In this document: positions 7,329 to 64,000 of the stretch, piece after piece
How the letters are laid out: the number at the start of each line of letters is the position of its first letter
Numbering within the stretch: the stretch's first letter is position 1
Assembly (NCBI GenBank): GCA_016180645.1
Contig: JACPAV010000025.1
Span: 1-64,000, forward strand
DNA: 64,000 nucleotides
Direction: 5' to 3'
From: Nitrospirota bacterium
GTDB taxonomy: Bacteria; JACPQY01
Translations under genes and position numbers: made by a program
The notes under the pieces: model-generated
What the model saw: only the letters and a program-made list of their open reading frames with translations
What the model was told of the DNA's origin: nothing
Database searches by the model: none

Positions 7329-7384
7329 CGACGCCAAGACCCCATGGTTTTTCATCTCGTCGTCCGTGGAGCGGAGTGGAGGGG
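7329..7384 (-). repeat. Repeat family A, copy 5 (reverse, intergenic)
   Basis: Near-consensus reverse copy (TTTTTCATCTCGTCGTCCG in the middle) directly downstream of the DUF3150-like gene. Confidence 0.92.
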
Positions 7385-7446
7385 ATGATCGAAAGGGGAA
7401 TGGTTCACAAACCCGTTGTCTTGAGGGTGAGCGTTGCGTGAGGTGT

Positions 7447-7514
7447 TCATCCCACCACCTGAAACGGGCGCGCGAGCGCCCCGTTCCGGGTCGGTTTCAG
7501 GTGGTGGGATCATG
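7447..7514. repeat. Repeat family B, copy 3, ending at the radical SAM start codon
   Basis: Palindrome ATCCCACCACCTGAAACG ... TTTCAGGTGGTGGGATCATG. The ATG at 7512 is the start chosen for the next gene; AGGTGGTGGG acts as its ribosome site. Confidence 0.9.
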
Positions 7515-13438: not shown

Positions 13439-13451
13439 CGGAAGATTCTCT

Positions 13452-28763: not shown

Positions 28764-28936
28764 CAGTCATGGGACGGCGATATCCCGCTCCGTCCGTCCC
28801 TCTGGGATGCATGCGGAAAACAATGAATAGGATGGAACGAACAAGAGCTCGCGGGGAGGCGCGAGAAGAGAAGGGTTCAACGGAAAGTCTATTTCGCATC
28901 TCTGTGGAACGGACCCGGAGAATAAGGGGGCGATCC

Positions 28937-28993
28937 TTTCCCGCCCGACCGGTCCCTGCCGAAGGGCGGGGGTCGATGGGGCGGGGAAAGGAG
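28937..28993 (+). promoter_or_regulatory. Paired-hairpin leader next to the SD of SLOG gene 2
   Basis: TTTCCCGCCC (28937-28946) can pair with GGGCGGGGAAA just before the GGAG ribosome site (one-base bulge), or with GGGCGGG at 28964-28970. The two stems exclude each other, as in an attenuator. The sequence lines up with 27916-27973 (TTTCCC...CGA...GGTC...CTTGC/CCTGC...GATnG...GCGGGGAAAGGAG). Confidence 0.55.
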
Positions 28994-28999
28994 AGAACC

Positions 29000-37655: not shown

Positions 37656-37958
37656 ATGAACAAGAACAGCAAGGACGACAAAACAAAGAGGGCCCGGATG
37701 CCTTTTCCATTCCCGATGCTGGGCGGAAGCCAGTCGGGCGTATCGGATCTCGAGGAGCTTTACGTCGACGCCCTCGCGGAGGGCGGCATGTGCGAAGCAC
37801 CGGAGCAGGATCGAACGGTGGAAATGCTGTCGATCGGCGGAACGACGGTGGTCCGGCGGGTGGGTCGGCGGTCGAGAGTCATCGTCCCCTCCGCTCCGCT
37901 CCACGGACGACGAGATGAAGAATCATGGGAACCTTACATCGAGGTCGATCTGGCGTGA
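37656..37958 (+). CDS. Small protein at the head of the T4SS operon, with repeat-derived C-terminus
   Basis: A 100-aa protein of unknown function. The start ATG 37656 lies 9 nt after AGAGAGG. The N-terminus is lysine-rich (KNSKDDKTKRARMPFPFP), the middle acidic (LEELYVDALAEGGMCEAPEQ). Residues 77-95 are a family A repeat read in the second forward frame (VPSAPLHGRRDEESWEP), and the gene ends six codons later. Its stop overlaps the GTG of the traE-like gene (GTGA), showing coupling. In F-type operons TraL or pilin normally precede TraE, but this protein has no membrane span and is not a convincing match to either. Confidence 0.6.
   Translation: MNKNSKDDKTKRARMPFPFPMLGGSQSGVSDLEELYVDALAEGGMCEAPEQDRTVEMLSIGGTTVVRRVGRRSRVIVPSAPLHGRRDEESWEPYIEVDLA
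37884..37940 (+). repeat. Repeat family A, copy 11 (in frame at a C-terminus)
   Basis: Consensus copy read in the second forward frame, close to the stop of the 100-aa protein. Confidence 0.93.
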
Positions 37959-38632
37959 GGACGAACTTGGGATCCCTGCTCGTTGCGCTCCGTGGTGGAA
38001 AGGCCGCGGGCGAGATGAAGCCCCATGGGGTCTCTGCGCCGAAACCGGCCCGGAAAAGCGCGGGGCGCTTCTTCGAGGTCTGGGGCGAGGCGGAGACGCG
38101 GTACGAGCACATGCGAGGACTCACCATTCTTTCCCTTCTGGTCGCGCTTGCGGCCGTGGGCCTGGCAGCCGTGCGGAAAGACCGGGTCTATGTGGTCCCG
38201 GGAGCTGCGGGGGTGACCAGACTCGGCGACGAATCGGCGGGACCGGCCTATGCGGTCGACGTGGCGAGGAGTTTTCTCACACAGTATGCGTCCTATCGGC
38301 CCGAGACGATCGAGGGGAACGTCCGATCGGCGCGGACGTACTTGGAGGAGCATCTCCTGGAACCTTTCGACAAGGCGACGATCCGCCAGGTGGAGCGGGC
38401 GAAGAGTCTGTCGCTGTCGCAGCATTTCTGGATCCGGCAGGAAACGGTGGAGCCGACGGGAAAAGATTACAAAGTGGTTCTGGTGGTGTGGCAGGAACTA
38501 TGGAGTCCGCGGGGCAAGGAGTGGGCCGGGACGTACCGGTACGAGATCAGTTTGAAGAAGGTGCCGGTCGCCGGACGGGATTTCCGGGGACTGGCGATCG
38601 TCAACATCGCCCAGCGACAGGAGGCGGCATGA
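37955..38632 (+). CDS. traE: TraE-like T4SS pilus-assembly protein
   Basis: A 225-aa protein like F-plasmid TraE (VirB5/VirB8-position, inner-membrane pilus-assembly factor). A single N-terminal span (LTILSLLVALAAVGLAAV, about 52-69) is followed by a periplasmic domain with YAVDVARSFLTQYASYRPET, NVRSARTYLEEHLL and WQELWSPRGKEWAGTYRYEI, the typical TraE pattern. I start at GTG 37955, coupled to the previous stop; ATG 38015 is an alternative that gives a more usual TraE length of about 205 aa. The extra N-terminal part (37966-38041) is a degenerate family A repeat. It ends overlapping the TraK start (ATGA). Confidence 0.78.
   Translation: MRTNLGSLLVALRGGKAAGEMKPHGVSAPKPARKSAGRFFEVWGEAETRYEHMRGLTILSLLVALAAVGLAAVRKDRVYVVPGAAGVTRLGDESAGPAYAVDVARSFLTQYASYRPETIEGNVRSARTYLEEHLLEPFDKATIRQVERAKSLSLSQHFWIRQETVEPTGKDYKVVLVVWQELWSPRGKEWAGTYRYEISLKKVPVAGRDFRGLAIVNIAQRQEAA
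37966..38041 (+). repeat. Degenerate family A repeat at the TraE N-terminus
   Basis: CGAGATGAAG, CCATGGGGTCTCTGCG and a TTGCGCTCC block are in the family A order, with an insertion between them. Read in frame if GTG 37955 is the true start. Confidence 0.55.
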
Positions 38633-39540
38633 ACGGGATGAGTGTCTGGCGGCGGATCCGGTGGGACGTGATCTTAGCCGTGGGCCTGGCGGCAGGGCTG
38701 ACGCGGGGAGCGGCGTTCGCAGTGGATCTCTCGGTACAGCCGTGGAGCCCGGGCAGGACGATCTACGTTCCTCTTCAGGTGGGCAATCCGATGAGCGTGA
38801 AATTTCCCGAAACCCCGAAGCAGTGCGCCGTCCACGACGAACAGCAGCTCACGGTGGAGTATTTCGGGAGGGAGGCCATCTTCAAGGCGCTCAGTTCTTT
38901 CAGCGCGAGCATCTTCTGCATGGACGTGAAGCAGAACACCTACGCGCTCAAAATGGAAACGACCCCCTACGCGGGACCCACGATGATCCAGATCGTCCCG
39001 GAGGAGGGTGCGCCGGTCGGCGCAAAAAGCGATGGGGGCCACGCGTTCTACGGACCCCTCAAGAGACTGCTCCTCGCCATGTACCATCAGCAGCCGCTTG
39101 CGGGCTACGAGATCGAGGTGACGAGCCGGGTGATCGTGGGATCGGAACCGGGATCGCTCCATGTTCGGCAGGTCATGCGGTACGTCTCCGACGTGAGCAA
39201 CCTGATCGGATACGTATTGGAAATTGAGAACCGTCTGCAGGGCCAGGCGCAGGCCGTGGCACCGAGGATGCTCAAGGTTCCGGGGAAGGTCGCGGCGGGC
39301 GTACGGGACATGTATCTCGCGCCGGCGGGGCCGGCGCCGACGCCCCCTCCGCTGCGCTCCGGGGACGATGAGTGGAAGAATCACGGGGTCTTTGCATCGC
39401 CGGAGGCGTACCTGGGTTATCCGACGAAGACGGTGGCGTGGATGGTGGTGGACCGCCGGGCGCTGCCGGAGGGACTCGACAAGGGGACGGACACGCTGCC
39501 GTTAACGGTGAATCCCGAGACGCGCAAGGACGGAGACTAG
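38629..39540 (+). CDS. traK: TraK-like T4SS secretin-type protein, with an in-frame repeat
   Basis: A 303-aa exported protein like TraK/VirB9 of F-type systems, which forms the outer-membrane core with TraB and TraV. A signal peptide (VILAVGLAAGLTRGAAFAVD) is followed by the TraK-like beta-domain: VPLQVGNPMSVKFPETPKQC, LTVEYFGREAIFKAL and TTPYAGPTMIQIVPEE. A family A repeat is read in frame at residues 237-257 (PPPLRSGDDEWKNHGVFAS), inside the second half and followed by conserved-looking sequence (YLGYPTKTVAWMVVDRRALP). So a core secretion protein carries an internal insertion. The start ATG 38629 follows AGGAGG and overlaps the traE stop. Confidence 0.78.
   Translation: MNGMSVWRRIRWDVILAVGLAAGLTRGAAFAVDLSVQPWSPGRTIYVPLQVGNPMSVKFPETPKQCAVHDEQQLTVEYFGREAIFKALSSFSASIFCMDVKQNTYALKMETTPYAGPTMIQIVPEEGAPVGAKSDGGHAFYGPLKRLLLAMYHQQPLAGYEIEVTSRVIVGSEPGSLHVRQVMRYVSDVSNLIGYVLEIENRLQGQAQAVAPRMLKVPGKVAAGVRDMYLAPAGPAPTPPPLRSGDDEWKNHGVFASPEAYLGYPTKTVAWMVVDRRALPEGLDKGTDTLPLTVNPETRKDGD
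39341..39399 (+). repeat. Repeat family A, copy 12 (in frame inside TraK)
   Basis: Read in the first forward frame as PPPLRSGDDEWKNHGVFAS. Confidence 0.92.
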
Positions 39541-39567: not shown

Positions 39568-41103
39568 GTGGAAGAAGGAGAAAGGGGCAAGACGGGTGGC
39601 GACGCGGGATCGATGCCGGGATCCTATGATTCTTCTCCTCATCGTCTCCGGAGAGAAGCGGAGGGGGCGCCGGTCGGTTCGGGAGCGGAGGATGGAACCG
39701 AGATTAGCGGGTCGTGCGCTGTCGGAGAGAGCAACCCGGGACCTGCGTCGGTGGCGGCGCAGGATCCCCATAACTATTCCCATCGCCGTCCCCGGAGCAA
39801 CGCAGAGTGGACGGAAAGAATGGACCTCACACTGAAAACCCACGGGCTTTCACGCCGGCAGGCGGTCGTGGGCGCAGGTCTTGTGCTGGCGGCCCTTATG
39901 GCGATCATCACGGCCGGGCGGGCAACCGGAGAGGCGCCGCCACTGGACGTTCTGAAGGAGGGCGTCGTAGGCGGTGCCGAGGCGCAGCCTACGGGGAAGG
40001 CTGTCCAAGCCGCGGTGAATTTGCCGCCCGTGCTGGGCGGCGCGGAGGGAATTGAGGGAGAGACGCCGGCGAAGCCGGAGGAGGATCCGGTAGCACGGTG
40101 GCGAGCGATGGGCGCCGAGGCTGAAGCGGCGGGAGGCGAGCAGAGGGCGGTAGTAAGAGCCGGAAGTGGGTTCGACTCCGCTCAGAATGCGGATGCGCTG
40201 ATCAACCGGGAGAAAATGAAGGATATGGAGCGACGCCTTGAGGAGTCGGAGGAGTCGAGGCACCAGCTGGAACTCTCCCTCATGAAGGAGATCGCCGAGC
40301 TGAAGAACAAGGCGGAGGGTGGGCGATCCATCACAACCATTTCAGGGAGCGGCGGGGCGTCCGGTTCGGAAGGCCACGCAGGCCACGAGGGCATGGCGGA
40401 GGCGCGACCGGTCGGGAGAGGGAAAATTATTGTGAACCCGAGCGCGGGCGCGGCTTCGGACGAGAGCGGCGTGTACTTTCCGAGCGGAAGTTTCGCGGCA
40501 GGCGTGCTGCTGACGGGTGCGCTCGCCCCGGATACGGATCAGCAGCTGCCGTACCCGCTGCTCGTGCGTCTGCAGGGTTCGTTCGTGGGACCGAACCGAT
40601 TCAAGATTCCGGCGCACGGGTGTTTCGCGCTGGGGCGGGCGAGCGGCCGGGCGGTGGCGAGGCGCGCGGAGATCCAGGTGTTTCAGATGAGCTGCGTCTA
40701 TGAGGACGGGACGTCGATGGACCGCAAGATCAACGGCTGGGTGTCGGGCGAAGACGGCATCCTGGGGGTGCCGGGTATTGTGGAGAACCATGACGGCCTG
40801 TACATCGCGGGGACGATTGCCGCCCGGACCGCGCAGGCGTTTTCGCAGGCGATTGCGGCGTCGCAGCTGACGACGCAGCTCACGCCGCTGGGCGGCGCTC
40901 AGCAGAAGGTGGACGGAAGTCTCGTGTCTTACGGGTTTTCGAGCGCGGGCGCGGGTTTCTTCGACTCGCTCGCAAAGATTATGGAAGAAAGGATCCGTCG
41001 CAACGTTCCGGTCATCAGAGTGGAACCGGGAAAGGAGATTCATGTCGTACTGGCTCAAGGTTTCGAGGGGATGCCCCCCGATCTGGCTCTTCCTGTGCAC
41101 TAG
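39568..41103 (+). CDS. traB: TraB-like (VirB10-type) T4SS channel protein
   Basis: A 511-aa protein like F-plasmid TraB, which spans the envelope and gates the secretion channel. GTG 39568 follows AGGAAGG. Residues 11-34 and 63-81 are two reverse family A repeats (SYDSSPHRLRREAEG; AQDPHNYSHRRPRSNAEW), so the cytoplasmic tail is largely repeat-derived. A membrane span (VVGAGLVLAALMAIITAG, about 96-113), a Pro/Ala-rich linker and a coiled coil (MKDMERRLEESEESRHQLEL) follow. The VirB10/TrbI domain has GVYFPSGSFAAGVLLTGALA, FVGPNRFKIPAHGCFALG and GVPGIVENHDGLYIAGT. The C-terminus overlaps the next gene by 62 nt. Confidence 0.84.
   Translation: MEEGERGKTGGDAGSMPGSYDSSPHRLRREAEGAPVGSGAEDGTEISGSCAVGESNPGPASVAAQDPHNYSHRRPRSNAEWTERMDLTLKTHGLSRRQAVVGAGLVLAALMAIITAGRATGEAPPLDVLKEGVVGGAEAQPTGKAVQAAVNLPPVLGGAEGIEGETPAKPEEDPVARWRAMGAEAEAAGGEQRAVVRAGSGFDSAQNADALINREKMKDMERRLEESEESRHQLELSLMKEIAELKNKAEGGRSITTISGSGGASGSEGHAGHEGMAEARPVGRGKIIVNPSAGAASDESGVYFPSGSFAAGVLLTGALAPDTDQQLPYPLLVRLQGSFVGPNRFKIPAHGCFALGRASGRAVARRAEIQVFQMSCVYEDGTSMDRKINGWVSGEDGILGVPGIVENHDGLYIAGTIAARTAQAFSQAIAASQLTTQLTPLGGAQQKVDGSLVSYGFSSAGAGFFDSLAKIMEERIRRNVPVIRVEPGKEIHVVLAQGFEGMPPDLALPVH
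39600..39669 (-). repeat. Repeat family A, copy 13 (reverse, in frame inside TraB)
   Basis: Reverse copy with a slightly expanded right end (GACGCGGGATCGATGCCGGG), translated in the TraB N-terminus. Confidence 0.82.
39757..39809 (-). repeat. Repeat family A, copy 14 (reverse, variant, in frame inside TraB)
   Basis: Reverse variant copy (GATCCCCATAACTATTCCC, then CCCCGGAGCAACGCAGAG), translated in TraB 50 residues after copy 13. Confidence 0.75.
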
Positions 41104-41559: not shown

Positions 41560-44500
41560 ATGAAGAATCTGAAGAAACGGAAGGGCGCTTGGGCAGGCTC
41601 ACGACCTCATAAGGCGCTGAGTCAATCGAAGGGAGCGCAACCGAGCGGCGCCAGGACGGCACAGCCGTCCGGCCCTGCCTGCCGCGACGCCTCCGCGTCC
41701 TGCGGCGCAGGCAGGGACTCGCTGGACGCGACGAAGCGGGGCGTTCCCGTCTTGAGTTTCCTCCTGGCCGCGGCGGCGCTCTGCGGGACGGCGGCGTGCG
41801 CCCCGCCGGAGCCGGCGACGTACATCATCTATATCGAGGCGGAGAAGTCGCTCACGTCGGCGGTGGAGAGATTTGCGCCGGTGGCACGGATCGACCGGGG
41901 GGAGAGCGTGCTGGACGACGGCGTACCGGTGGGCTTCCAGATCGGCGAGGACGGCGCGTCGTATGTGTCGCTGGGATTCGAAGGTCGGCTTGGGAATGCG
42001 GAGGACCCGGTCACTCTGACGCTCCATGACCGGAGAGTGGATCTCATCGGCGTGAAGCTCATGCGGGCCAGGAACAGTGAGGGGGTCCTGACGCGGGACG
42101 GCGAGGCGACGGCGTTTCCCGATTCGGACGAGGACGGCGTGGAAAATCTCATCGAGGCGTATCTGGGGACGGATCCCTTCTCGAAAGGGCAAAGGCCGCC
42201 CGAGGACCAGGCGCAAAAGATTGCGGAGGATGTCTTTCCGGAACTGGCTTCTCAGCGAAAGGCGCGTAGCACCGGGAATACGGGAGGGGCTGGGGCCGGC
42301 GACCCCGGTGCGGGGGTCGATACGAAAATCACGACAAAACCTTCGAAGCCCGTGTCATCGGATGCCGTAACAATTCGGTTCATCGCGGTGGGGAAGGCGG
42401 AGGGGGCGAGGTTGGAATGTTCGGTGGACGACGGTGCGTTTGGGGAGTGTGTCTCGCCGCTGACGCTTACGGGCCTCGCGGAAGGGCCGCACCGGTTGCG
42501 GGTCAGGGCGGTCGCCGGCGACGGCGAGGTGGATGCGACGCCGGCGGAGGCCGTCGTCGTCGTGGACCGCACGCCACCCGCGACGAAAATCACGGGGACC
42601 CCATCGGGCGTGAAGAACGAGGGGAAAGTGTCTCTCCAGTTTGAGTCGACGGAGGCGGGGAGCGCATTCCTGTGTTCCGTGGATCAGAGCCCGGTGCAGG
42701 CGTGTTCGCCCGGTCAGGGAGTTTCAGTCGGATCGGACGGCCGCCACACCATTCGGGTCTTCGCCATGGATGCCGCGGGAAACCGGGATCCTGTAGGAGC
42801 GGAGGCGGTTGTGGATGTGGATCTGACGCCGCCGACGGTAAAGTGGCTTGCCGCGCCGGCCGCCGTGACGAACCGCACGGAGGTAACGGTGACGGCTGCC
42901 GCGGAGGACCGCGCGGGAGTCGCTGTGATCGAGTGCGCGGTGCGCGGTGCTGCCGAGAAGGATCAGTCGCCCCCTCCGCTGCGCTCCACGGACGACGAGA
43001 TGAAGAATCATGGGGTCTTTACGTCGCCCCGGTGGGAGGCCTGCGGGTCGGGCATGATGGTCCGGGGACTGGCGGAGGGCGCCTTCGTGGCCATGACCCG
43101 GGCGAAGGATCGGGCGGGAAACGTGAGTGCCGTTCTCGAAACAGCTTTCATCGTGGACCTCACGGCGCCGGCCGTTCGCATCAAGGAGGGGCCGGCCGAG
43201 GTCAGCGCGATGAAGCAGGTGTCGTTCGTCCTGGAAGGCTCGGAGGATGTAGAGACCTTCCGCTGCGGAATGGACGAAGAGTGGTCGGCCTGCGGGGGTA
43301 CCTGGAGCGTGCCGAGCGTGCCGGAGGGGCGCCACTTGGCGCAGGCCGAGGGCGTCGACAAGGCGGGTAACGTGGGCCGAAGCGAGGCGTACGCCTTTAC
43401 GATCGATCGATCGCCGCCGGAGATCCGGGTCGTGTCCGGGCCGGTGGATGGGACCAACCAGTCGTCGGTTGTCTTTCGGATGGGGATTACAGATGCGCTT
43501 TCGGGTGGGGCAAGGCTCGAGTGTTCCGCGGACGGCGGGGCGTTCAGCGATTGCCTGGAAAAGGGCGTGACGTTTTCAAGCCTGACGACCGGAGCGCACG
43601 TGCTCGCCGTGAGGGCGGCGGATGGAGCGGGGAATGCGGCGGCAAGCAAATTTACGTTTGTTGTGGACCGGACGGCGCCGACGGTGACGGCCTCCGTGGC
43701 GGCCGGCTGGCTCAAGTCGCCGGGGGCGGTGATGTTCTCGGCGGCCGACGACAGCGGCGTCGCCCCGGCGGTCGACTACTGTTTCGCTCTGGGGGCAGGG
43801 TCCTGTGTGCCGTCGGTTCGCGCGGTCGATGGAGTGGGAGAGATAAGCTGCGAGGCCGGGGCGATCTGCGAGGGAAACGTGCATTTCACGGCGGTGGACC
43901 GGGCGGGGAACCGCTCGGAGGTTGTGCGCGTAAGCGTCAAGGTGGATGCGCAGGGGCCTATGATCGGGGGGGATGTCGCGTTCACGATGATGGGGACGCG
44001 AGGCGCGAGTCTGAGCGCGCGATTCGATGACGCGGGTGTAGGCGAAGTGAAAGACTGTCTTCTTGAGTTTGCGGACTCCGCGGGCGTGACGAGTCAAACG
44101 AAAGCGGCGGTGGGTGGAGTGTGTTCGGTCTCGCGCGCATGCGAAAGAAAAGGACCACTCGTCTTGGGTGTCGTGGCGCTCGATGCGGTAGGGAACGGAT
44201 CGGCCCTGGTGGAAAGGACGATGACCTGCGATTCGGCGCCGCCCGCGACAAGTATTACGTTTGGGCCGGACGTGAAGGAGTCCCCCGGGAGGTTCATCGA
44301 CGGCGGGCCCGGGTTCACGACGAGACGCTACCCGTTCGCGGTGACGGACGGGGACGGTGTGGGGCCACGGGAGGTGCGCTACTGGGTGACGGGCATGAGC
44401 GGGGAGGCGAGCTGCTTGTGGACGAGCCCGGGAGGCTGCGGTTTCGAGGTTGCGTGTTTGGGTTCGGTTTGCCTCGGAACGGTCCGGTTCTACTCGGTCG

Positions 44501-49247: not shown

Positions 49248-49741
49248 GTAAAGACTTCTTGGGGGGATGATGCGTCTCCCCCACTACGGGCTCGATTCTA
49301 GTCCCGGCAGGTAAATTGTCAACTGGGGTGATGTCCTTACTCGCAGTGGTGTTGTGAGAACCGGAACCTCCTTATCGACATGGGACGATGGCCCGTCCCC
49401 TTCTGACCTTGGCGCCTCATCTTCCCGCAGGAAGCACTTTGTCTCTCTTTCCCGTCTCACGCGCGATTTCTTGGGAGAGGATCTTTGGAAGTTGTTTGAT
49501 GAGCGCCCAACGGGCCCGCGCCAGGAATTCTTTCAGCCCCATTGCATGAAGGTGGCGCTCTTGCCATCCAGGTAGAACGGCGTCCGGTCGGGGATCGGTC
49601 AGGTCCGGCGATCGGAGTCGGAGGCGATTGGACGCGAGGTGGGAGACGAAGGCCATGTTTCCTGTGGGGTGACTGCGCGCGTTTCGCGGAACCAACGCGG
49701 CAAACCGGCGGGATTGACGATGAGTTCAATATATGCTACAC

Positions 49742-49759
49742 ATTTACCCTATGGTAAAT
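49742..49759. promoter_or_regulatory. Palindrome at the start of the abiE operon
   Basis: ATTTACC-CTAT-GGTAAAT, in an AT-rich stretch just before or over the first codons of the AbiEi-like gene. AbiEi antitoxins repress their own promoters by binding inverted repeats, so this is a good operator candidate. Confidence 0.6.
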
Positions 49760-49762
49760 ATT

Positions 49763-51400
49763 ATGCATACAGGCCGGCGCACTGGAAGGATTCCGGTCGC
49801 AGATCTTGAACAAGAGGCGGTAGGGGGGATCCTCCAGCTCATCTCGCATATCGGAGTCAAGGTCAGGCAGGACAGGAGGCCGAGGCGGGAGCGGGGGGGT
49901 GGGGGCATCGGGTGGGACCGCGTGCTGAGGGCCCGGCACGGGGGGGAGGAGGCCCGGATCGGGATTCGGATCGTACGAAGAGGCGAGCCGAGTGCTGTCC
50001 TCGAGGCGATCGGCGTGATTTCGCTCATCAGAAAGAGGCCGGGCGAGCATGCGACGCGGCCCATCATCTTCGCCCCGTCTCTGACGGAGCGGGCCATGGA
50101 GCTCTGCGACGAAGCGGATGTGGGCTACCTGGATCGCCTCGGAAACGTCGCGGTGCGATTTCTGAACGTGGTTGTGCAGAAGGAAAAGGAAAAAAGCATG
50201 CCCTGGCCCAGACGCGAGCTTCGGCATCTCTTCGCGCCCAAGACATCGAGGGCCATTCGGGTCCTGCTTACAGCCCCGGCCCGAGCGTGGACCCAGAAGG
50301 GGCTGGCGGACGAAGCGGACGTCAACATTGCCCTTGTCAACCGCTTGGTGAGACGGCTCAAGGTCGAGGGACTCGTCGCCCTATATCACAAGCGATGGAT
50401 CGTGACGGACCCGAAGACGCTCCTGGGAAGGTGGCTTCAGGCGTACGCCTTCGGGGACGCACATCTGAGCCTGCCCTGTTTCGATGTGCAAGGGGCGCAG
50501 GGACTCTACCGAGGTCTGCGGGATCTCGCCGAGAAGCGCGGGCTGCGGTGGGCCGTGACGCTCTACTCGGGCGCGAACATGCGGTCCCCCTTTACGACGG
50601 CGCAGGTCACGCATGTCTACATCGGGGGGGCGGACGTGCATGAAACGGCGGAGGCGCTCGAGTTGAGGCCGGTCGGGAAGGGTGCAAACGTGGTCCTCAT
50701 CGAGCCGGGGGATGAGGGTGTGTTCCACGGCGCACGGGAGATTGAGGGCGTTCCCGTTGTGTCTGATCTTCAACTCTACCTGGACCTGAAGACATCCGGA
50801 GGGCGGGCTGCGGAGCAGGCCGAGCACTTGGTGGAGAAGGGACTCGTGGCGGCCGCGAAAGAGTGCGCCGCCCCCCCCTTGGGGATCGTCCTGGGAGGCA
50901 TCCCTTCGGATGTGGGTGGAGAGGATGACGGCGCGCCCGGCGATCGGGCGGCGCAGGCGGTTTTGCTTGTCGAAAGGGAGATCGAGAAAACCATGACTCG
51001 GGGCAAGTCGCGGGGGAGTAGGAGAGCCGAATGGCTGCGCGCGACCTTGTGGCTCCTCCGCCTCCAAGCGGCGATGGAGGAGGACCGGAAGCATTTCCTC
51101 GAGTCGGCGGAGCGGATCGTGTCAACCGATACGGCGACCGACGCCTTGGAGGCGCGGGGACTCTTGGATGGAGCGCTGGTGTCGTATGGGCGGGCGCTGC
51201 GCAACGGCCTGAAGGCGAGGTGGGAGACGGATCCTCATGATCGTAAGCACTATCGGGCGGACTTTCAGCGGCAGCTGCGCCTTCTGTTGAACGTGGAGAG
51301 TCAGCCGACGTGGCTGAGGCCGTGGATCGAGCGTCTCAAGACATGGTCCGAAGACGAATCCCGCGGAGTGGGGGAGAAGGGCGATGGCGGAGCCGCGTAG
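49763..51400 (+). CDS. abiEi: AbiEi-like antitoxin/transcriptional regulator, enlarged
   Basis: A 545-aa protein, much longer than typical AbiEi antitoxins (about 200-280 aa). A winged-helix segment (WTQKGLADEADVNIALVNRL, VRRLKVEGLVALYHKRWIV, about 170-215) is the DNA-binding part, followed by an AbiEi-like C-terminal region (VTLYSGANMRSPFTTAQVTH, VYIGGADVHETAEAL, GVPVVSDLQLYLDL). The last about 150 residues (AEWLRATLWLLRLQAAMEED, LLDGALVSYGRALRNGLKAR) form an extra helical domain of unknown role. I place the start at ATG 49763, just after the palindrome, possibly on a leaderless mRNA; ATG 49733 or 49751 are alternatives. Overlaps the toxin gene by 17 nt. Confidence 0.75.
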   Translation: MHTGRRTGRIPVADLEQEAVGGILQLISHIGVKVRQDRRPRRERGGGGIGWDRVLRARHGGEEARIGIRIVRRGEPSAVLEAIGVISLIRKRPGEHATRPIIFAPSLTERAMELCDEADVGYLDRLGNVAVRFLNVVVQKEKEKSMPWPRRELRHLFAPKTSRAIRVLLTAPARAWTQKGLADEADVNIALVNRLVRRLKVEGLVALYHKRWIVTDPKTLLGRWLQAYAFGDAHLSLPCFDVQGAQGLYRGLRDLAEKRGLRWAVTLYSGANMRSPFTTAQVTHVYIGGADVHETAEALELRPVGKGANVVLIEPGDEGVFHGAREIEGVPVVSDLQLYLDLKTSGGRAAEQAEHLVEKGLVAAAKECAAPPLGIVLGGIPSDVGGEDDGAPGDRAAQAVLLVEREIEKTMTRGKSRGSRRAEWLRATLWLLRLQAAMEEDRKHFLESAERIVSTDTATDALEARGLLDGALVSYGRALRNGLKARWETDPHDRKHYRADFQRQLRLLLNVESQPTWLRPWIERLKTWSEDESRGVGEKGDGGAA

Positions 51401-52241
51401 CCCGGAAATAACGCGGGCCTTGGAGGAGGTTCTCGTCGAGATCCTGACGCACCTGGGCCGGTACGCCGAGCACATGGTGGTGGTTGGGGGGATGGGTACT
51501 TACCTGCTCATCCGGGACCACGTGGGGCCGGAGGGATACATCGGGACGCGGGACATCGATCTCTTGGTGAATCCCTCGGAGATCCCGGGGACGGTGTATG
51601 CGCGGATCAGCGAGATCCTGTCGGACCACGGTTTCCAGCAGAAGAAGGACCTGCTGGGAAAGCCAATCCCAAGCATTTTCGTGCGGACCAAACTCCTTCC
51701 CGGAGAGGGCGTTTGGGACGAGGAAATCGATTTCCTGGCTCCCGAGTACGGGGGGTCGGGCCGGAAACGGCGGCATCAGCGCGTGCAGGATCTTCTGGCC
51801 CGCAAGGTTCGGGGTGGAGACTTGGCGTTGGAGGGGGCGATGACGGTCCCTGTGCGGGGCGTGCTTCCCTCGGGTGCGCCGCAGACAAGATCCATCCGTG
51901 TCGCTTCGCCTGCATCGCTTCTCGTCATGAAGGCGGTCACGTTCGGCGATCGGAAGGAGGACAAGGACGCGTATGACATTGTCATGCTTCTGCGCCATGC
52001 TCCGGGAGGGCTGGATTCGGCGGTGGAGTACTTCACGGTTCATGGCTCACACGGTTTGGTGAGGGAGGCCGTGCGAGTACTGGAGGAGGCGTTTGGAGGA
52101 TCGGATTCGATCGGCCCGGCGGGGGCGGCATCCAGCATGGGGGCCACCGGCCCCGAGGTCAGAGCCCAGGATAGGCAGTTGGCGTTCGAGGTGGTGCAGA
52201 GGTTTCTCAAGCGTATTTGGAGGGGCGGAGGAGCGCCATGA
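51384..52241 (+). CDS. abiEii: AbiEii-like nucleotidyltransferase toxin
   Basis: A 285-aa protein of the AbiEii nucleotidyltransferase family, the toxin of type IV toxin-antitoxin systems. MVVVGGMGTYLLIRD (about 32-46) and GTRDIDLLVNP (about 53-63) give the GS/GG and DxD active-site pattern; EEIDFLAPE (about 113) supplies the third acidic residue, and DRKEDKDAYDIVMLL (about 190) is the conserved Lys/Asp-containing motif. AbiEii-type enzymes transfer nucleotides to tRNA 3' ends or similar targets, which is notable given the tRNA array 10 kb away. ATG 51384 lies within the end of the antitoxin gene, so the two are coupled. Confidence 0.83.
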   Translation: MAEPRSPEITRALEEVLVEILTHLGRYAEHMVVVGGMGTYLLIRDHVGPEGYIGTRDIDLLVNPSEIPGTVYARISEILSDHGFQQKKDLLGKPIPSIFVRTKLLPGEGVWDEEIDFLAPEYGGSGRKRRHQRVQDLLARKVRGGDLALEGAMTVPVRGVLPSGAPQTRSIRVASPASLLVMKAVTFGDRKEDKDAYDIVMLLRHAPGGLDSAVEYFTVHGSHGLVREAVRVLEEAFGGSDSIGPAGAASSMGATGPEVRAQDRQLAFEVVQRFLKRIWRGGGAP

Positions 52242-53228: not shown

Positions 53229-53386
53229 TGTAACCTGCCGACAGGGTCGGTGGAAGTGGAAAAGGGGTATTGCAACGGTTTCCGAAGTGGGTTACAAGTG
53301 CGGGGCTTTGCGACCTGCCTCCAAGAGTAGTTATAACCAATGGGGAGAGGCTGGAGCGAGAGCAATGGAATGAAGGAGGATGATTC

Positions 53387-53812
53387 GTGGCAAAACCAAA
53401 GAGAAAGAAAGCCAGGGGCAAGGTCATCCTGGCAGGTGAGTACGCGCGCAAGTCACTAGCCGCGCTCAGACCGTCGTCGATCAACGATCTGGTCAAGAAA
53501 GTGAAGGCCGTCACTGGGCGCAGACTCGCGTTTGCAACGGCGAAGGCCCTGTATCAGGAGTTCCGATCCAAGGTGGGCGCTTCGGCCCCGGCAGACGAAA
53601 GGCCGGCACCCCGGCGGATCCCTCGACCAACCCGTCGGGCGGTGTCACCACAGAACGGCGAGCAGTACTTGGTGGTGACGAGGGACCGGGGCTTCAGGCT
53701 TGAAGTCCTGCGCTACATGGACAAGGGGCAGGCGGAGAGAAAGGCAACCGAGATGATCGGAGCGGGGCGAAAAACGCGCGTCCTGGTCGCGAACCTGAGA
53801 GAGGAGGAGTGA
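53387..53812 (+). CDS. Basic small protein, 141 aa
   Basis: GTG 53387 follows GGAGGATGATTC. The N-terminus is strongly basic (KPKRKKARGK). A helical domain follows (YARKSLAALRPSSINDLVKK, VTGRRLAFATAKALYQEFR), then a Pro/Arg linker (PAPRRIPRPTRRA) and a small C-terminal domain (GEQYLVVTRDRGFRLEVLRY). No family recognised. The basic head and linker suggest nucleic-acid binding. It stops one base before the next gene's ATG, so it leads a compact three-gene run of small basic proteins (to 54338). Confidence 0.66.
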   Translation: MAKPKRKKARGKVILAGEYARKSLAALRPSSINDLVKKVKAVTGRRLAFATAKALYQEFRSKVGASAPADERPAPRRIPRPTRRAVSPQNGEQYLVVTRDRGFRLEVLRYMDKGQAERKATEMIGAGRKTRVLVANLREEE

Positions 53813-53813
53813 G

Positions 53814-53969
53814 ATGGCACAGAAAAAGCCTTTTGGCGGCATGACAATCGACTTTGGAGGCCGCAAAGAAAGTATTGAGAGCGTCTTCGGAACGGGGGCT
53901 CTCAAGCCCAGCGACATGACGAAGAAGCTCTGGTCCTTCATCAAGTCCAAGAAGCTCATCAGGAAGTAG
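53814..53969 (+). CDS. 51-aa protein with a SWIB-like C-terminal motif
   Basis: ATG 53814 lies one base after the previous stop and behind GAGGAGG. The product contains TGALKPSDMTKKLWSFIKSK, matching the central helix region of SWIB/MDM2 domains (typically KPSEL..KLWEYIK). It is far shorter than a full SWIB domain (about 75 aa), so it is either a minimal version or a remnant. SWIB-type proteins are rare in bacteria and known mainly from Chlamydiae and a few others. The similarity is read by eye. Confidence 0.55.
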   Translation: MAQKKPFGGMTIDFGGRKESIESVFGTGALKPSDMTKKLWSFIKSKKLIRK

Positions 53970-54338: not shown

Positions 54339-54392
54339 GATCCGACGTCTTGGCGCGATCGGAAGGGATCGGGGCATTCCGCCGCTCAAGCC

Positions 54393-54456
54393 ATGATCCC
54401 ACCACCTGTCACCAAGTCGAAGACTTGCCTTTCGGCAGTGACAGGTGGTGGGATGA
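54393..54456. repeat. Repeat family B, copy 6 (intergenic, short)
   Basis: ATGATCCCACCACCTGTCAC ... GTGACAGGTGGTGGGATGA. The shortest complete copy; its spacer contains the same AAGTCGAAGACTTGCC block as copy 4. Confidence 0.93.
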
Positions 54457-54650
54457 TTGACAAACCACCTTTCGTTGGTACGATGCAGTGACGGCATTGG
54501 GGGTGGAGTGATGACGATGAACACGCCGACAGAAGAGTCTGGGCGATGCGGATCCCGGATGACGGGACGCGCGTCCGAAGTGAGCCAAATCGGCCATGGG
54601 CGGAGTCGTTGGCGGAGGTTGGAGTGTCCAACTTCCGAGTAGAGATGCAT

Positions 54651-60772: not shown

Positions 60773-62227
60773 TCAGGCGTGCCGCTCTTCCACCTTCTCC
60801 ACGAAGGCGAGAACTCTCGCGGCGAGTTCCCGGCCCCTGTGGACAGCGGCCTCGAACGCCCGGAGTTCCTCTCCACGCCCCTCGACGGCCGGATCCCCTC
60901 TCCACGCGTCCAGAAGGCGGCAGTACGCCAGGAGGGACTGGTTGTTCTGGGACCACCCCGAACGAATCCGACCGCAGACAACCGGATGGAGCGACCCTCT
61001 CAGGCGCGCGGCCTCCTCGATGATCCCGGCGAAGAAAACGGCGTTATCGAGCCAAGTCCCGACTTTTTCGCGAAGCTTCGGGAACTCATCGGAGGAGGGA
61101 ACAAGCGGATTGCCGTACCGGTCGGTCGGAGGCAGATCGAGCAGCTCGGGCCCGCTCCCGTCCAAACCGGGCTCGCCGAAAACCTGCCTGCGAATCCGGT
61201 TCACCGCGCCGATGATTTCCTTCAGGAAAGGCGACGGCGCAAAATCGGTCTCCTTGAGGTCTCCCGTCTGGAGGGCTTCGGCGACAAGAGACATAATCTG
61301 AAGCTGGAGCGCTTCGTGCTCCCGGAGCATCTCCTCGCGTTCATGTTCGGGTAAGGTATGAGCCACGCGGCGCGCCGCGGACTCGCCTCCCGAGACCTGA
61401 GCCGCCTGAACTTGCTTGAAGACCGATCCCCATCTCTCCTCGAAGACCTGGCGCCGCGCCATGAAGCTCACCCACCGAGGGTCACCCCAGTCAACCTGTC
61501 CGCGTCGCTCCGGACGGGGGCCGACGTAGTTGCCTTCCTTGTCGCGCCAGAGGGGCCAGTGAGGAACGAGTCGACGGTCCCGGAACTCTTTGTCCCTGAT
61601 ATAGCGCATGTAGAAAACGCTGCCGATCGCGCGACCAAGCTCCCGATACCCCTTGAACAGATGGGGGAACTCCACCGGCAGGCGTTCGAACGCCTTCGAG
61701 GCCGGCAGCCGATAGGTGAGAACGGAGGCGGCGATCCGACACATCTCGTCCCAATGCTCCTCGAAGTGCTTCTTCTTCACTACGCCTCCGAAACATTTCT
61801 GCGCCTTGGGCGGCAGCTTCTGGCCGGGCATGGAGTAGAGCTTGAAGGTGCTCCCCGGGGAGAGGAAGAGATGGAGCTCGAAGCCCATCAGGTGCATGAA
61901 ACCGAACGCGCAGTCGATCACTTCGCTCCTCGGTATCCCGGGCGGCCATCCCCGGACGGCGTCGCCCCCGCCCAGTTCGTAGTCCACGGGCATGGCCGCG
62001 ACGATTTCCTCTTCCTCGTTCCGAGGGAGCTTCGCGAGCGTCGTCCCCTGGCTTTCCGCGCGGTTCTTGAACCCGTCAATCAATCTGAAGGCGATAGGGA
62101 TCTCGGACTCGTGCGCGACGAAGATTTTCGGGATGGAAGTGAGCTTCTCCTCCAACGATCCTCCGACTCCGCTTTCGTAGCACTTGACCCGCCGCGCGTC
62201 AACGGCATCCACCCACGGGTGTTGCAC
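60773..62227 (-). CDS. Paralog of the SEC-C protein without the SEC-C motif
   Basis: A 484-aa protein. FGFMHLMGFELHLFLSPGST, HFEEHWDEMCRIAASVLTYR, FKGYRELGRAIGSVFYMRYI and, near the end, FFAGIIEEAARLRGSLHPVV with SLLAYCRLLDAWRG line up with the SEC-C protein encoded at 56088-57635 in the same order. In place of SEC-C it has a different middle (EKLTSIPKIFVAHESEIPIA precedes the shared part). No function is known. The start GTG 62227 is the first in the frame and lies about 120 nt from the last tRNA; a later start is possible. A large open frame on the other strand is a shadow of this gene. Confidence 0.7.
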   Translation of the reverse strand: MQHPWVDAVDARRVKCYESGVGGSLEEKLTSIPKIFVAHESEIPIAFRLIDGFKNRAESQGTTLAKLPRNEEEEIVAAMPVDYELGGGDAVRGWPPGIPRSEVIDCAFGFMHLMGFELHLFLSPGSTFKLYSMPGQKLPPKAQKCFGGVVKKKHFEEHWDEMCRIAASVLTYRLPASKAFERLPVEFPHLFKGYRELGRAIGSVFYMRYIRDKEFRDRRLVPHWPLWRDKEGNYVGPRPERRGQVDWGDPRWVSFMARRQVFEERWGSVFKQVQAAQVSGGESAARRVAHTLPEHEREEMLREHEALQLQIMSLVAEALQTGDLKETDFAPSPFLKEIIGAVNRIRRQVFGEPGLDGSGPELLDLPPTDRYGNPLVPSSDEFPKLREKVGTWLDNAVFFAGIIEEAARLRGSLHPVVCGRIRSGWSQNNQSLLAYCRLLDAWRGDPAVEGRGEELRAFEAAVHRGRELAARVLAFVEKVEERHA

Positions 62228-62345: not shown

Positions 62346-62419
62346 CGGTCCCGGCCGGACTTGAACCGGCTTTCTCCGCCTTGACGGGGCGGCGTCTCGA
62401 CTGCTTCGACTTCGGGACC
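62346..62419 (-). tRNA. tRNA-Asp(GTC)
   Basis: Acceptor GGTCCCG/CGGGACC, anticodon stem CCGCC/GGCGG, T-arm GCCGG-TTCAAGT-CCGGC and discriminator G. The anticodon loop is CCGTCAA, so base 33 is C instead of the nearly universal U. No CCA encoded. The D-loop lacks the usual GG. Confidence 0.85.
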
Positions 62420-62422
62420 CTC

Positions 62423-62461
62423 GCTCCTGCCCGGATTGGAACCGAGGTCTACGGCAGGAGC
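62423..62461 (-). other. tRNA-like minihelix (remnant)
   Basis: GCTCCTGC pairs with GCAGGAGC around a T-arm-like CGG-TTCCAAT-CCG, but there is no D-arm or anticodon arm. It lies exactly between tRNA-Asp and tRNA-Glu. Either a tRNA that lost its middle or an acceptor/T-arm minihelix. Confidence 0.5.
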
Positions 62462-62471
62462 CTGGAAACTG

Positions 62472-62543
62472 TGGCCCGTGCGAGAGTCGCACTCGCTTCA
62501 CCGGATTGAAAGTCCAGTATCCTAACTCGTAGACGAACGGGCC
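62472..62543 (-). tRNA. tRNA-Glu(TTC)
   Basis: Acceptor GGCCCGT/ACGGGCC, anticodon loop CTTTCAA on stem CTGGA/TCCGG, T-arm GCGAG-TGCGACT-CTCGC and discriminator A. No CCA encoded. Confidence 0.92.
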
Positions 62544-62544
62544 G

Positions 62545-62617
62545 TGGCTCGAAAAGGATTCGCACCTTTGCCTGCGCCTTATGAGAGCGCCGTGCCTGCT
62601 GATTACACCATCGAGCC
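62545..62617 (-). tRNA. tRNA-Met(CAT), elongator type
   Basis: Acceptor GGCTCGA/TCGAGCC, anticodon loop TCTCATA on GGCGC/AGGCG (imperfect), T-arm AAAGG-TGCGAAT-CCTTT and discriminator A. A lysidine-modified Ile(CAT) cannot be excluded, but Ile(TAT) is also present in the array. Confidence 0.85.
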
Positions 62618-62619
62618 TC

Positions 62620-62694
62620 TGGTAGCGGGTCCAGGATTTGCACCTGGGATCTCGTGGTTATGAGCCACGCGAGATACTACTTCTCCAACCCGCG
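62620..62694 (-). tRNA. Initiator tRNA-fMet(CAT) with encoded CCA
   Basis: 5' CGCGGGT faces 3' ACCCGCT, leaving base 1 (C) unpaired with base 72 (T), the hallmark of bacterial initiators. TGGAG follows, the anticodon loop is CTCATAA on CGTGG/CCACG, and the T-arm is CCAGG-TGCAAAT-CCTGG. The 3' ACCA is encoded. Confidence 0.88.
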
Positions 62695-62699
62695 ATCAG

Positions 62700-62784
62700 G
62701 AGCTCGACTATTGAAAGTAGTGTGGTAGGTTATCGCTCGCGCATTCGCGGGCGATCTTCGTAGAAGGATTCCGCGCCCATCCGG
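62700..62784. other. Spacer with a strong hairpin
   Basis: ATCGCTCGCG-CATT-CGCGGGCGAT (about 62731-62754) is a 10-bp stem with one mismatch. It may separate or process the tRNA transcripts. No tRNA fold found here. Confidence 0.55.
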
Positions 62785-62855
62785 ACACGGCTGCGGGAGT
62801 TGCACCCGCCTGATGTGGGTTGCAGCCACACGCCTACCTGCTCGGCCAAGCCGTG
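62785..62855 (-). tRNA. tRNA-Cys(GCA)
   Basis: Acceptor CACGGCT/AGCCGTG, anticodon loop CTGCAAC on TGTGG/CCACA, T-arm GCGGG-TGCAACT-CCCGC and discriminator T, as expected for Cys. Confidence 0.92.
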
Positions 62856-62919
62856 CGCGGATAAACGCGGACTACAGTCCGTCTCGAAAGAAATCGTTAC
62901 AGCCATCGTGTGATCTCCG

Positions 62920-62992
62920 CTGGGGAGGTGGGTCTCGATCCCACAACTTCCTGATTAACAGTCAGGCCCGTTGCCGATTGCGGTACTCCCCA
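62920..62992 (-). tRNA. tRNA-Asn(GTT)
   Basis: Acceptor TGGGGAG/CTCCCCA, anticodon loop CTGTTAA on CCTGA/TCAGG, T-arm GTGGG-ATCGAGA-CCCAC and discriminator G. Confidence 0.93.
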
Positions 62993-63084
62993 GCGCAGAC
63001 CACGCGCCAGAGAGTTCCTATTGCCCGGACCCAGTTTCTTCATGCCCATCATGGTACTCCTTTCGTCATTCTCTCGTCAAACTT

Positions 63085-63155
63085 CAGGGAAGCAGGGACT
63101 CGAACCCTGGTCTGCGCTTTTGGAGAGCGCATGATTGGCCGCCATCTTCCTCCCC
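63085..63155 (-). tRNA. tRNA-Trp(CCA)
   Basis: Acceptor GGGGAGG/CTTCCCT (two G-U pairs), anticodon loop CTCCAAA on GCGCT/AGCGC, T-arm CAGGG-TTCGAGT-CCCTG and discriminator G. The D-arm is short. Confidence 0.86.
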
Positions 63156-63158
63156 TGT

Positions 63159-63230
63159 TCGGCGCGGGAAGGTACGATCTTCCGTCTGTCGGTTATAAGC
63201 CGACTGCTCTCCCTATTGAGCTACACGCCG
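63159..63230 (-). tRNA. tRNA-Ile(TAT)
   Basis: Acceptor CGGCGTG/CGCGCCG, D-arm GCTCAATAGGGAGAGC, anticodon loop CTTATAA on GTCGG/CCGAC, T-arm GGAAG-ATCGTAC-CTTCC and discriminator A. It reads the rare ATA codon directly, a type rare on chromosomes but common in phage and plasmid arrays. Confidence 0.92.
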
Positions 63231-63237
63231 TAACCTT

Positions 63238-63323
63238 CGGAAGGTGAGGGAATTGAACCCCCGCCGGACGTGCCGGGATCGGTTAGCAACCGATTGCGAC
63301 AAACCGACATTCGCCTACCTTCC
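63238..63323 (-). tRNA. tRNA-Ser(GCT)
   Basis: Long-variable-arm tRNA: acceptor GGAAGGT/ACCTTCC, anticodon loop TTGCTAA on ATCGG/CCGAT, variable arm around CCGG...CCGG, T-loop TTCAATT and discriminator G. Confidence 0.92.
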
Positions 63324-63327
63324 AAGC

Positions 63328-63402
63328 TGGAGCCTCCGGCCAGTATTGATCTGGCTTCTCCGCGTTACGAGTGCGGTGCATCACCTTTTATGCTTCAGAG
63401 GC
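63328..63402 (-). tRNA. tRNA-Thr(CGT) with encoded CCA
   Basis: Acceptor GCCTCTG/CGGAGGC, anticodon loop CTCGTAA on CCGCA/CGCGG (one mismatch), T-arm GCCAG-ATCAATA-CTGGC, discriminator T and then encoded CCA. Confidence 0.9.
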
Positions 63403-63405
63403 ACG

Positions 63406-63477
63406 AGCCGCCGGAGGGCGTCGATCCCTCTTTTCCTGGGTACAGGCCAGGCGTCTTTCCATCTCGACCTCAGCGGC
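63406..63477 (-). tRNA. tRNA-Thr(TGT)
   Basis: Acceptor GCCGCTG/CGGCGGC, anticodon stem CCTGG/CCAGG, T-arm GAGGG-ATCGACG-CCCTC. The anticodon loop is CCTGTAC, so base 33 is C. Confidence 0.87.
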
Positions 63478-63484
63478 AGAACTT

Positions 63485-63555
63485 TGCGGGAGCGGGGACT
63501 TGATCCCCGGCTTCAGGCTTGGAAGGCCCGCTTGCTTCCACTACAACACTCCCGC
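63485..63555 (-). tRNA. tRNA-Gly(TCC)
   Basis: Acceptor GCGGGAG/CTCCCGC, anticodon loop CTTCCAA on CGGGC/GCCTG, T-arm CGGGG-ATCAAGT-CCCCG and discriminator A. Confidence 0.93.
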
Positions 63556-63562
63556 TCATGTT

Positions 63563-63631
63563 TGCGCGGGGCCGGCCTCGATCCGGCATGGACCTGTGTG
63601 TAGGACAGGCGGCTCTCCATTCACCCCGCAC
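63563..63631 (-). tRNA. tRNA-Val(TAC)
   Basis: Acceptor GTGCGGG/CCCGCGC, anticodon stem CCTGT/ACAGG, T-arm GCCGG-ATCGAGG-CCGGC and discriminator A. The loop is CCTACAC with C at base 33. The D-arm is short (about 12 nt). Confidence 0.82.
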
Positions 63632-63736
63632 CAATCCCGAAACAAGCGTGTTGATGTTGAAAACACGAAAGGCGAAGCCGCCTTCGGCTACAAATCAACA
63701 CCTGTGCAGACGCAAACACAGGATTGGTGCGGGGTT
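63622..63736. repeat. Large inverted repeat abutting tRNA-Val
   Basis: CCCCGCACCAATCC (63624-63637) and GGATTGGTGCGGGG (63721-63734) are perfect complements about 83 nt apart. The interior folds further: GTGTTGAT/ATCAACAC, GGCGAAGCCGCCTTCGGC and CCTGTG/CACAGG. The left arm overlaps the first bases of tRNA-Val, so it could compete with tRNA folding. Confidence 0.7.
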
Positions 63737-63756
63737 CGCCTACCCGCGCTTCAAAT

Positions 63757-63832
63757 TTGCGGAGTGCGGGCTTCGATCCCCACCCTTCCGCATACCAAAC
63801 GGACGCACATCCAACCGTGCTCTAGCGGCGAA
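63757..63832 (-). other. Degenerate tRNA-like sequence (Thr GGT?)
   Basis: A D-arm-like GCACGGTTGGATGTGC and an anticodon arm TCCGT-TTGGTAT-GCGGA (anticodon GGT, Thr) are clear, but the acceptor ends do not pair and the T-stem is poor. Probably a decaying tRNA. Confidence 0.4.
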
Positions 63833-63836
63833 ACTT

Positions 63837-63923
63837 CGGAGAGGGTGGGATTCGGACCCACGTCCGCCGGTCGGCGGATTCGGTTTTCAGGACCGATGCC
63901 TTCAACCACTCGGCCACCTCTCC
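63837..63923 (-). tRNA. tRNA-Ser(TGA)
   Basis: Acceptor GGAGAGG/CCTCTCC, D-arm GCCGAGTGGTTGAAGGC, long variable arm (CCGCCGACCGGCGG), T-arm GTGGG-TCCGAAT-CCCAC and discriminator G. The anticodon loop is CCTGAAA on TCGGT/ACCGA, so base 33 is C. Confidence 0.93.
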
Positions 63924-63931
63924 CAACTTGG

Positions 63932-64000
63932 CGGTAGCGGGAGGGGTCGAACCTCCAGTCCACGTCTTCACGGGACGCCGCCTTTCCACGACGGCGGTTT
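63932..64000 (-). tRNA. tRNA-His(GTG), 5' part beyond the window
   Basis: T-arm GGAGG-TTCGACC-CCTCC, anticodon stem GCGTC/GACGT with loop CCGTGAA (anticodon GTG, C at base 33) and 3' acceptor strand CGCTACC. The 5' acceptor strand lies past base 64000. Confidence 0.75.

Follow-up and report, generated by a model that had tools for sequence, protein, structure and literature searches.

Large tRNA arrays can be carried by mobile DNA, as on an integrative conjugative element (ICE) of Acidithiobacillus. Array units are known from mycobacterial chromosomes, phages and plasmids (PMC5966550; PMC12803027), and the Acidithiobacillus ICE array is mentioned in the first of these reports (PMC5966550). 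The DNA considered here is contig C25 (JACPAV010000025.1, 67883 bp) of a draft Nitrospirota genome (GCA_016180645.1; 4.7 Mb, 65 contigs), of which positions 1-64000 form the window, i.e., the whole stretch analysed. A minus-strand tRNA array (array A) occupies 62346-64000 of the window and extends to contig position 67783, comprising about 34 tRNA genes in 5.4 kb. A second, diverged copy (array B) is located on contig C59, and in both copies the D-loop/T-loop contact that forms the tRNA elbow is recoded in many tRNAs.

Both arrays resemble the described array units (PMC5966550; PMC12803027) in comprising dozens of tRNA genes at a density of 2-9 per kb on mobile-element-like DNA, in covering nearly all amino acids, in being redundant to the host's tRNAs yet diverged from them, in occurring as syntenic variants and in their suspected anti-defence role. 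Arrays A and B each contain at least 20 genes at 2-9 per kb, and their isotypes are redundant, with less than 90% identity to the chromosomal set. The HNH gene embedded in mycobacterial arrays, which is typical of the class rather than required for it, was not found among the tested open reading frames (ORFs) of arrays A and B. Unlike in the described units, two paralogous copies are present in one draft genome, and elbow recoding is not described there. The array can be assigned to the described class; the features that are, provisionally, new are the recoded elbow and whole sets that share the recoding.

Some staphylococcal tRNA-Gly species with altered elbows are reported to serve cell-wall synthesis. 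In these natural tRNAs, too, the D and T loops deviate from the canonical form; however, they represent one isoacceptor in which the contact is lost, whereas here it is rebuilt in a whole set that keeps G19-C56. For phage tRNAs, evasion of anticodon nucleases through anticodon-loop mutations has been proposed (PMC10264068), and tRNA-targeting immunity and phage tRNA counter-measures are treated in several reports (PMC10264068, PMC11555353, PMC12409363, PMC12851939). The present arrays share with the evading phage tRNAs (PMC10264068) the extra tRNAs, loop changes at sites read by tRNases and, here, an enrichment of C33, but the D-loop/T-loop contact is altered as well, and in several linked ways. 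A related structure is the UGNRA lonepair triloop, a consensus closed by the same U-A pair that closes the tRNA T loop, whose G commonly meets an outside A to give a GNRA-like composite (PMC2258182). This motif is known from riboswitches and other RNAs; the swapped tRNAs fit it by sequence, as U54 G55 C56 R57 A58 with A18 as the outside A.

Elbow recoding in arrays A and B

U54-U55-C56 of the T loop and G18-G19 of the D loop are textbook near-invariants of tRNA. tRNA genes were called by Rfam covariance models (CM) and ARAGORN, with whole-contig and whole-genome Rfam searches added. T-loop positions 54-56 read UUC in 44/44 host tRNAs outside the arrays. By ARAGORN, array A (n = 26) has 9 UUC, 9 UGC, 4 AUC and 4 UCC loops, and array B (n = 30) has 12 UUC, 7 UGC, 7 AUC and 4 UCC, so that the elbow is non-canonical in 35 of the 56 array tRNAs, while C56 is kept in all 56. 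The UGC tRNAs have A in place of G18: eight of the nine D loops in array A read clearly A18-G19 and the ninth AGG, and those of array B read A18-G19 in 5/7 cases, with one AGG and one GG. Rfam CM alignment, which is separate from the in-house parsing, likewise shows A18 and G55 in the Met, fMet and Glu tRNAs. G55 together with A18, retained C56 and G19, and intact stems is found in 9/26 tRNAs of array A and 7/30 of array B. In the anticodon loop, C33 replaces U33 in 7/33 tRNAs of array A and 10/31 of array B, compared with 1/44 in the host. The positions rewritten in the predicted tRNAs are thus U54 or U55 of the T loop, G18 of the D loop and, in part of the set, U33; the commonest rewrite is a compensated swap of G18-U55 for A18-G55 in which the outer G19-C56 pair is kept.

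Array B (C59 21594-25649) lies at the end of a 25.8-kb contig and comprises about 33 tRNA genes in 4.1 kb. Gene order is largely alike in the two copies, with tRNA identity ranging from 58 to 100%. The final 99 bp of C25 and C59, upstream of the first tRNA, are identical, as expected from an assembly break at a shared leader. BLAST comparison of the arrays with plasmids and phages gave single-tRNA matches only and no homologous array. At C59 23836-23910, a tRNA with a TTA anticodon adjoins Gln(CTG), which it resembles in its loops, and has the look of a Gln tRNA turned ochre suppressor.

Outside the arrays, the genome encodes 44 scattered tRNAs with 43 anticodons; they serve all 20 amino acids, and both Ile(TAT) and an initiator are among them. 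The array is therefore redundant; the case of its being the host's only copy of these tRNAs, which the preliminary description had named as fatal to its reading, is ruled out by this comparison. Array A adds no anticodon to the host repertoire, and array B adds Arg(CCT) and TTA (ochre). Identity of array tRNAs to host isoacceptors is mostly 59-77% and never exceeds 77%, so they are not recent host duplicates. A single relative genome of the same family has 41 tRNAs and no sign of an array. The host encodes TruB and TrmFO, and its canonical tRNAs are hence expected to carry T-loop modifications that many array tRNAs cannot.

The stems were compared in 21 orthologous A/B tRNAs with 17 stem pairs each. 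Among the 95 pairs that differ between A and B, pairing is retained in 81 with changes on both sides and in 9 with a single change, and is absent in 5; for double-sided changes, 81 still pair versus 1 that does not. This pattern is that of purifying selection on the predicted structure of the array tRNAs.

The A18-G55 swap in other tRNA sets

Viral and genome contigs were scanned with an A18/G55 tRNA-Leu pattern and a generic A18/G55 pattern. Seven records (L236-L242) carry A18/G55 in 181/199 tRNAs, frequencies that are not a measure of prevalence since the loci were chosen by this same pattern: 36/38 in L237, 33/34 in L238, 32/35 in L240, 29/34 in L239, 18/21 in L236, 17/18 in L241 and 16/19 in L242. 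Position 55 is altered in 182 of the 199 tRNAs, and positions 54, 56 and 58 in 8, 1 and 4, respectively. L242 encodes terminase and portal genes and therefore belongs to a tailed phage. L237 is located on a contig of a metagenome-assembled genome, together with an ABC-transporter gene, and the 24/24 other tRNAs sampled from this bin are canonical. Exceptions within the seven sets are mainly initiators, 8/11 Met-CAT tRNAs being canonical and mostly initiator-like.

Positions 18 and 55 covary nearly perfectly across 647 tRNAs of all groups: A18-G55 occurs 179 times, G18-G55 6 times, A18-U55 once and G18-U55 452 times (Fisher p ~1e-150, which overstates independence because the sequences are related). 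Among ten named phage arrays examined as a control, 200/205 tRNAs have TTC and 2 have TGC, both in Brevundimonas phage Kikimora; in five array plasmids, 145/154 have TTC, the remainder are mostly ATC, and neither TGC nor A18/G55 occurs. TGC thus accounts for 2/359 tRNAs in the fifteen known arrays combined. A majority swap was found in 0/26 viral contigs with at least 5 tRNAs that were chosen by a canonical initiator pattern, which sets with altered initiators would escape. Judged from these genes, the swap looks rare, yet nearly complete where it is present. A18/G55 tRNA sets, or tRNA sets using the UGNRA motif, were not found described in the open-licence full text of PMC.

The gene that recurs beside the swapped viral arrays, in a search for a shared candidate tRNase, encodes an HNH endonuclease. 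RtcB is present in 1/7 of the swapped viral records. The loci L236, L239 and L240 also encode a transfer-messenger RNA (tmRNA) and a Ro60/TROVE-like protein; tmRNAs of four swapped viral loci retain TTC and hence stand outside the swap. Single A18/G55 tRNA-Leu(CAG) genes occur in genomes of the Candidate Phyla Radiation (CPR), namely Candidatus Staskawiczbacteria (L108, L111, L115) and Nealsonbacteria (L106). In another viral contig, L349, the T loops of four tRNA-Gly genes read UGC/UGU and their D loops lack GG, as in the staphylococcal cell-wall tRNAs.

Possible meaning of the recoding and competing explanations

UGCRA together with A18 fits the UGNRA motif, which makes the swap a plausible structural stand-in for G18-U55. 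Swapped tRNAs could fold via the UGNRA lonepair-triloop geometry and remain usable by RNase P and the ribosome, both of which touch G19-C56; this pair forms the exposed elbow platform, a contact site for the ribosome and other partners (PMC4810234). U55 and G18 are the targets of TruB and TrmH (PMC7912444). Both are removed by the swap, while AUC removes the m5U54 target and UCC removes the U55 target. What all these forms of the predicted tRNAs share is that the canonical U54-U55/G18 signature is gone, though by several routes. The recoding itself is seen directly in the genes; for its selective agent, we infer enzymes that read the anticodon loop or the canonical elbow (U54-U55/G18), from which the rewrite would hide the set, and this is the least certain step. 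Candidate readers could be tRNA-cutting or tRNA-modifying systems of defence or competition, or the element's own host shut-off enzyme, and genes of the element would be translated on while ordinary tRNAs are inactivated. The enrichment of C33 is in line with the anticodon-loop evasion proposed for phage tRNAs (PMC10264068), and a counter-defence role of the array is plausible.

In the preferred reading, array A is a tRNA array unit that is present in two diverged copies on DNA resembling a mobile element, and beside the host's full set it encodes a parallel, nearly complete one that evades elbow-reading enzymes; this reading falls a little short of probable. The wider proposition that a second set with recoded elbows serves phages and conjugative elements, letting translation continue for them during the destruction or modification of canonical tRNAs by host defence or by the element's own attack on host tRNAs, is possible but doubtful. 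Several points weigh against evasion of an elbow reader. About one third of the tRNAs of the window array are still canonical, and several array genes are interrupted or degenerate. The initiators are mostly canonical in the swapped viral sets but swapped in array A. An elbow-reading enzyme was not identified on C25, on C59 or beside the viral arrays. Finally, ARAGORN and Rfam are tuned to canonical tRNAs, so that the counts of unusual tRNAs given here are lower bounds.

The strongest rival is modification-independent folding, in which the tRNAs outpace TruB, TrmFO/TrmA and TrmH or face hosts of uncertain modification capacity, and no nuclease is involved. This is unlikely, although the swap affects precisely those residues on which the elbow modifiers act (PMC7912444) and is compensated rather than destructive, and although UGNRA triloops are widespread among RNAs that lack such modification (PMC2258182). 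It would imply, with the same low likelihood, that the GNRA-like elbow of A18-G55 folds well without pseudouridine-55, m5U54 and Gm18. However, many tRNAs of arrays A and B have retained G18 and carry AUC or UCC in the T loop, a solution other than UGNRA; initiators of the viral sets are mostly canonical though equally exposed to hypomodification; and TruB and TrmFO are present in the host.

Ordinary supplementation of tRNAs to suit the element's codon usage or to support its translation capacity, with neutral elbow changes, is a frequent explanation for phage and plasmid arrays (discussed in PMC5966550), and anticodons spanning nearly all amino acids agree with it. It appears quite improbable here, since every anticodon of array A already exists in the host, and neutrality does not predict near-complete compensated conversion in several independent sets.

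C25 and C59 could also stem from a phage or plasmid and have been binned with a host to which they do not belong, which would deprive the host comparison of meaning; the draft consists of 65 contigs, and both arrays lie at contig ends. This is very unlikely: a short hairpin element inserted in array B has copies on C6, C12 and C13, C20 shares a palindromic element with C25 and C59, and the elbow finding holds in other arrays regardless.

A role outside translation, comparable to that of the staphylococcal cell-wall tRNA-Gly, or a function as decoys for tRNA-cutting enzymes, which would not require good translation substrates, has very little likelihood. tRNA-Gly genes with altered D and T loops were indeed met in the control scan (L349), but their D loops are without R18-G19, whereas the arrays keep G19-C56 and cover nearly all amino acids with matching anticodons. 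Relaxed selection, with the arrays as decaying baggage and the odd loops as degeneration, is disfavoured as scarcely credible, for although each copy has several genes that are degenerate or broken by small palindromic insertions, 90/95 differing stem pairs still pair (81 of them after double changes), C56 is invariant, and A18 and G55 change together.

If phages and conjugative elements do rely on such a second set, an elbow-reading tRNA-inactivating system would await discovery on one or the other side of the conflict. Across whole natural sets, a compensated alternative can take the place of one elbow contact out of two, i.e., the elbow can be recoded in bulk. Such recoding points to strong selection by an elbow reader and yields natural elbow-orthogonal tRNAs. 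It also provides a testable handle on the reason for which tRNA arrays are carried by mobile elements at all.

Gene content of array A and surrounding DNA

Within 62346-63923 on the minus strand, 12 tRNAs exceeded the Rfam gathering score, with 41.8 to 61 bits each; Trp and Ser-GGA were added by the whole-contig Rfam search and an interrupted Val-TAC by ARAGORN. The preliminary description had counted at least 15 tRNAs of 14 anticodons in an array running past the window, and 15 genes with 14 anticodons are indeed counted, including the interrupted Val-TAC and the Ser-GGA cut by the window end, in an array that reaches 67783. Its reading as an extra array on a mobile-element-like contig stands, in agreement with the TraE- and TrbI-like genes of C25, and so do the Ile(TAT) and both Met types. 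The mixed origin deduced from CCA being encoded by fMet and Thr-CGT only is rejected, as CCA is also encoded by Ser-GGA and by 2/44 host tRNAs; the initiator is not uncommon in such an array either, since named phage and plasmid arrays among those examined also hold one. The second array, the insertions in tRNA genes and the altered D-loop/T-loop contact were absent from that description.

All genes of the array within the window are on the minus strand. The last one is tRNA-Asp(GTC) (62346-62419; 52.1 bits; 97% identity to copy B), adjoined by a remnant consisting only of the T arm and 3' acceptor half (62420-62471; recognised in the sequence, without Rfam match). The elbow is A18/G55 by CM alignment in Glu(TTC) (62472-62543; 50.5 bits), elongator Met(CAT) (62545-62617; 57.4 bits; G18 to A, UUC to UGC) and initiator-type fMet(CAT) (62623-62694; 55.5 bits; 99% identity to B), in which both the C1:U72 mismatch (C1:T72 in the gene) and the encoded CCA already described were seen in the sequence and the CM alignment. 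Cys(GCA) (62785-62855; 47.1 bits; 100% identity to copy B) has a UGC T loop. AUC T loops are found in Asn(GTT) (62920-62992; 58.1 bits), Ile(TAT) (63159-63230; 61 bits), Thr(CGT) with encoded CCA (63331-63402; 46.9 bits), Thr(TGT) with C33 by reading of its anticodon loop (63406-63477; 45.1 bits) and Gly(TCC) (63485-63555; 60.4 bits). The T loop is canonical in Trp(CCA) (63085-63156; ARAGORN; 39.4 bits in the whole-genome Rfam search) and Ser(GCT) (63238-63323; 41.8 bits), and UCC in Ser(TGA) (63837-63923; 58.9 bits). Ser(GGA), with encoded CCA (48.1 bits in the whole-genome search), occupies 63932-64000 and extends to contig position 64020. Val(TAC) (63563-63749), whose 3' part was called by ARAGORN and which has an intact homologue in copy B, is interrupted in the D loop by a 111-bp palindromic insertion (63624-63734, minus strand) with 14-bp terminal inverted repeats CCCCGCACCAATCC/GGATTGGTGCGGGG. 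It is adjoined by a degenerate, Thr-GGT-like remnant (63757-63829; from the sequence, without Rfam match).

Pro(GGG) of array A is degenerate, and the lesions of A and B are largely different. In array B, hairpin elements lie within Arg(ACG) (once) and Pro(CGG) (twice), with apparent 3-bp duplications at their flanks. These elements (C59 24878-24942, 25324-25386 and 25416-25478, with the copies on C6, C12 and C13) are about 62 nt long and form two hairpins with AGGAY loops, which resemble CsrA/Rsm binding sites; the insertion sites are the anticodon loop and the D loop. A 266-aa ORF without Pfam match lies inside array A (contig 65533-66333), between Phe and Arg(CCG), at a site occupied in array B by Tyr, Arg and Gln tRNAs.

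The carrier may be a conjugative element or plasmid, to judge by conjugation-like genes on C25, i.e., a TraE-like protein (37925-38632, plus strand; Pfam PF05309, 1.3e-7) and a TrbI/TraB-like protein (39568-41103, plus strand; Pfam PF03743, 2.3e-13; NCBIfam TraB, 1.6e-16), and by tyrosine recombinases on C59; no complete element was recovered from the assembly. C25 also encodes a primase-like Toprim protein, Type III-like restriction (helicase) and methyltransferase genes (8869-16067, plus strand; Pfam ResIII and N6_N4_Mtase; PADLOC MTase_III, 1.3e-256) and an AbiEi/AbiEii-like toxin-antitoxin pair (49733-52241, plus strand; Pfam PF09952, 3.8e-4, and PF08843, 8.5e-6). The array is flanked by a 484-aa ORF with partial similarity to the DDE domain of Tn3 transposases (60773-62227, minus strand; Pfam PF01526, 1.3e-16). 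A segment at 53269-53956 is common to the array-B contig (83% identity, blastn) and contains a backbone gene of unassigned function (53387-53812, plus strand; 83% DNA identity on C59 by blastn; ORF clustering).

Near array B, tyrosine recombinases, an AbiE pair, a Fic gene and a T4 Rnl1-type RNA ligase with a KLDG motif are encoded. The ligase (L010:17262-18443, on C59) is the sole one in the genome and could serve tRNA repair. As a general partner of such arrays it was rejected, being single-copy in the genome and without relatives in the viral contigs; it was not found in the swapped viral records, in a search whose controls were equally silent.

Palindromic elements with ATCCCACCACCT ends, similar to miniature inverted-repeat transposable elements (MITEs), are present on C25, C59 and C20. 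In the window they occupy 836-923, 2787-2875, 7447-7514 and 54390-54470; one copy lies immediately upstream of array B, and the loss of Met and Glu from B is associated with a further copy. A 58-59-nt repeat occurs at about 15 dispersed sites (401-459, 7328-7386, 18123-18181, 21266-21324, 24712-24770, 27684-27741, 37883-37941, 39341-39399, 42968-43026 and others), several of them within long ORFs, and is reminiscent of gene-inserting palindromic elements. A YpsA/SLOG-family gene (28634-29677) adjoins a NADAR-domain gene (29662-30462).

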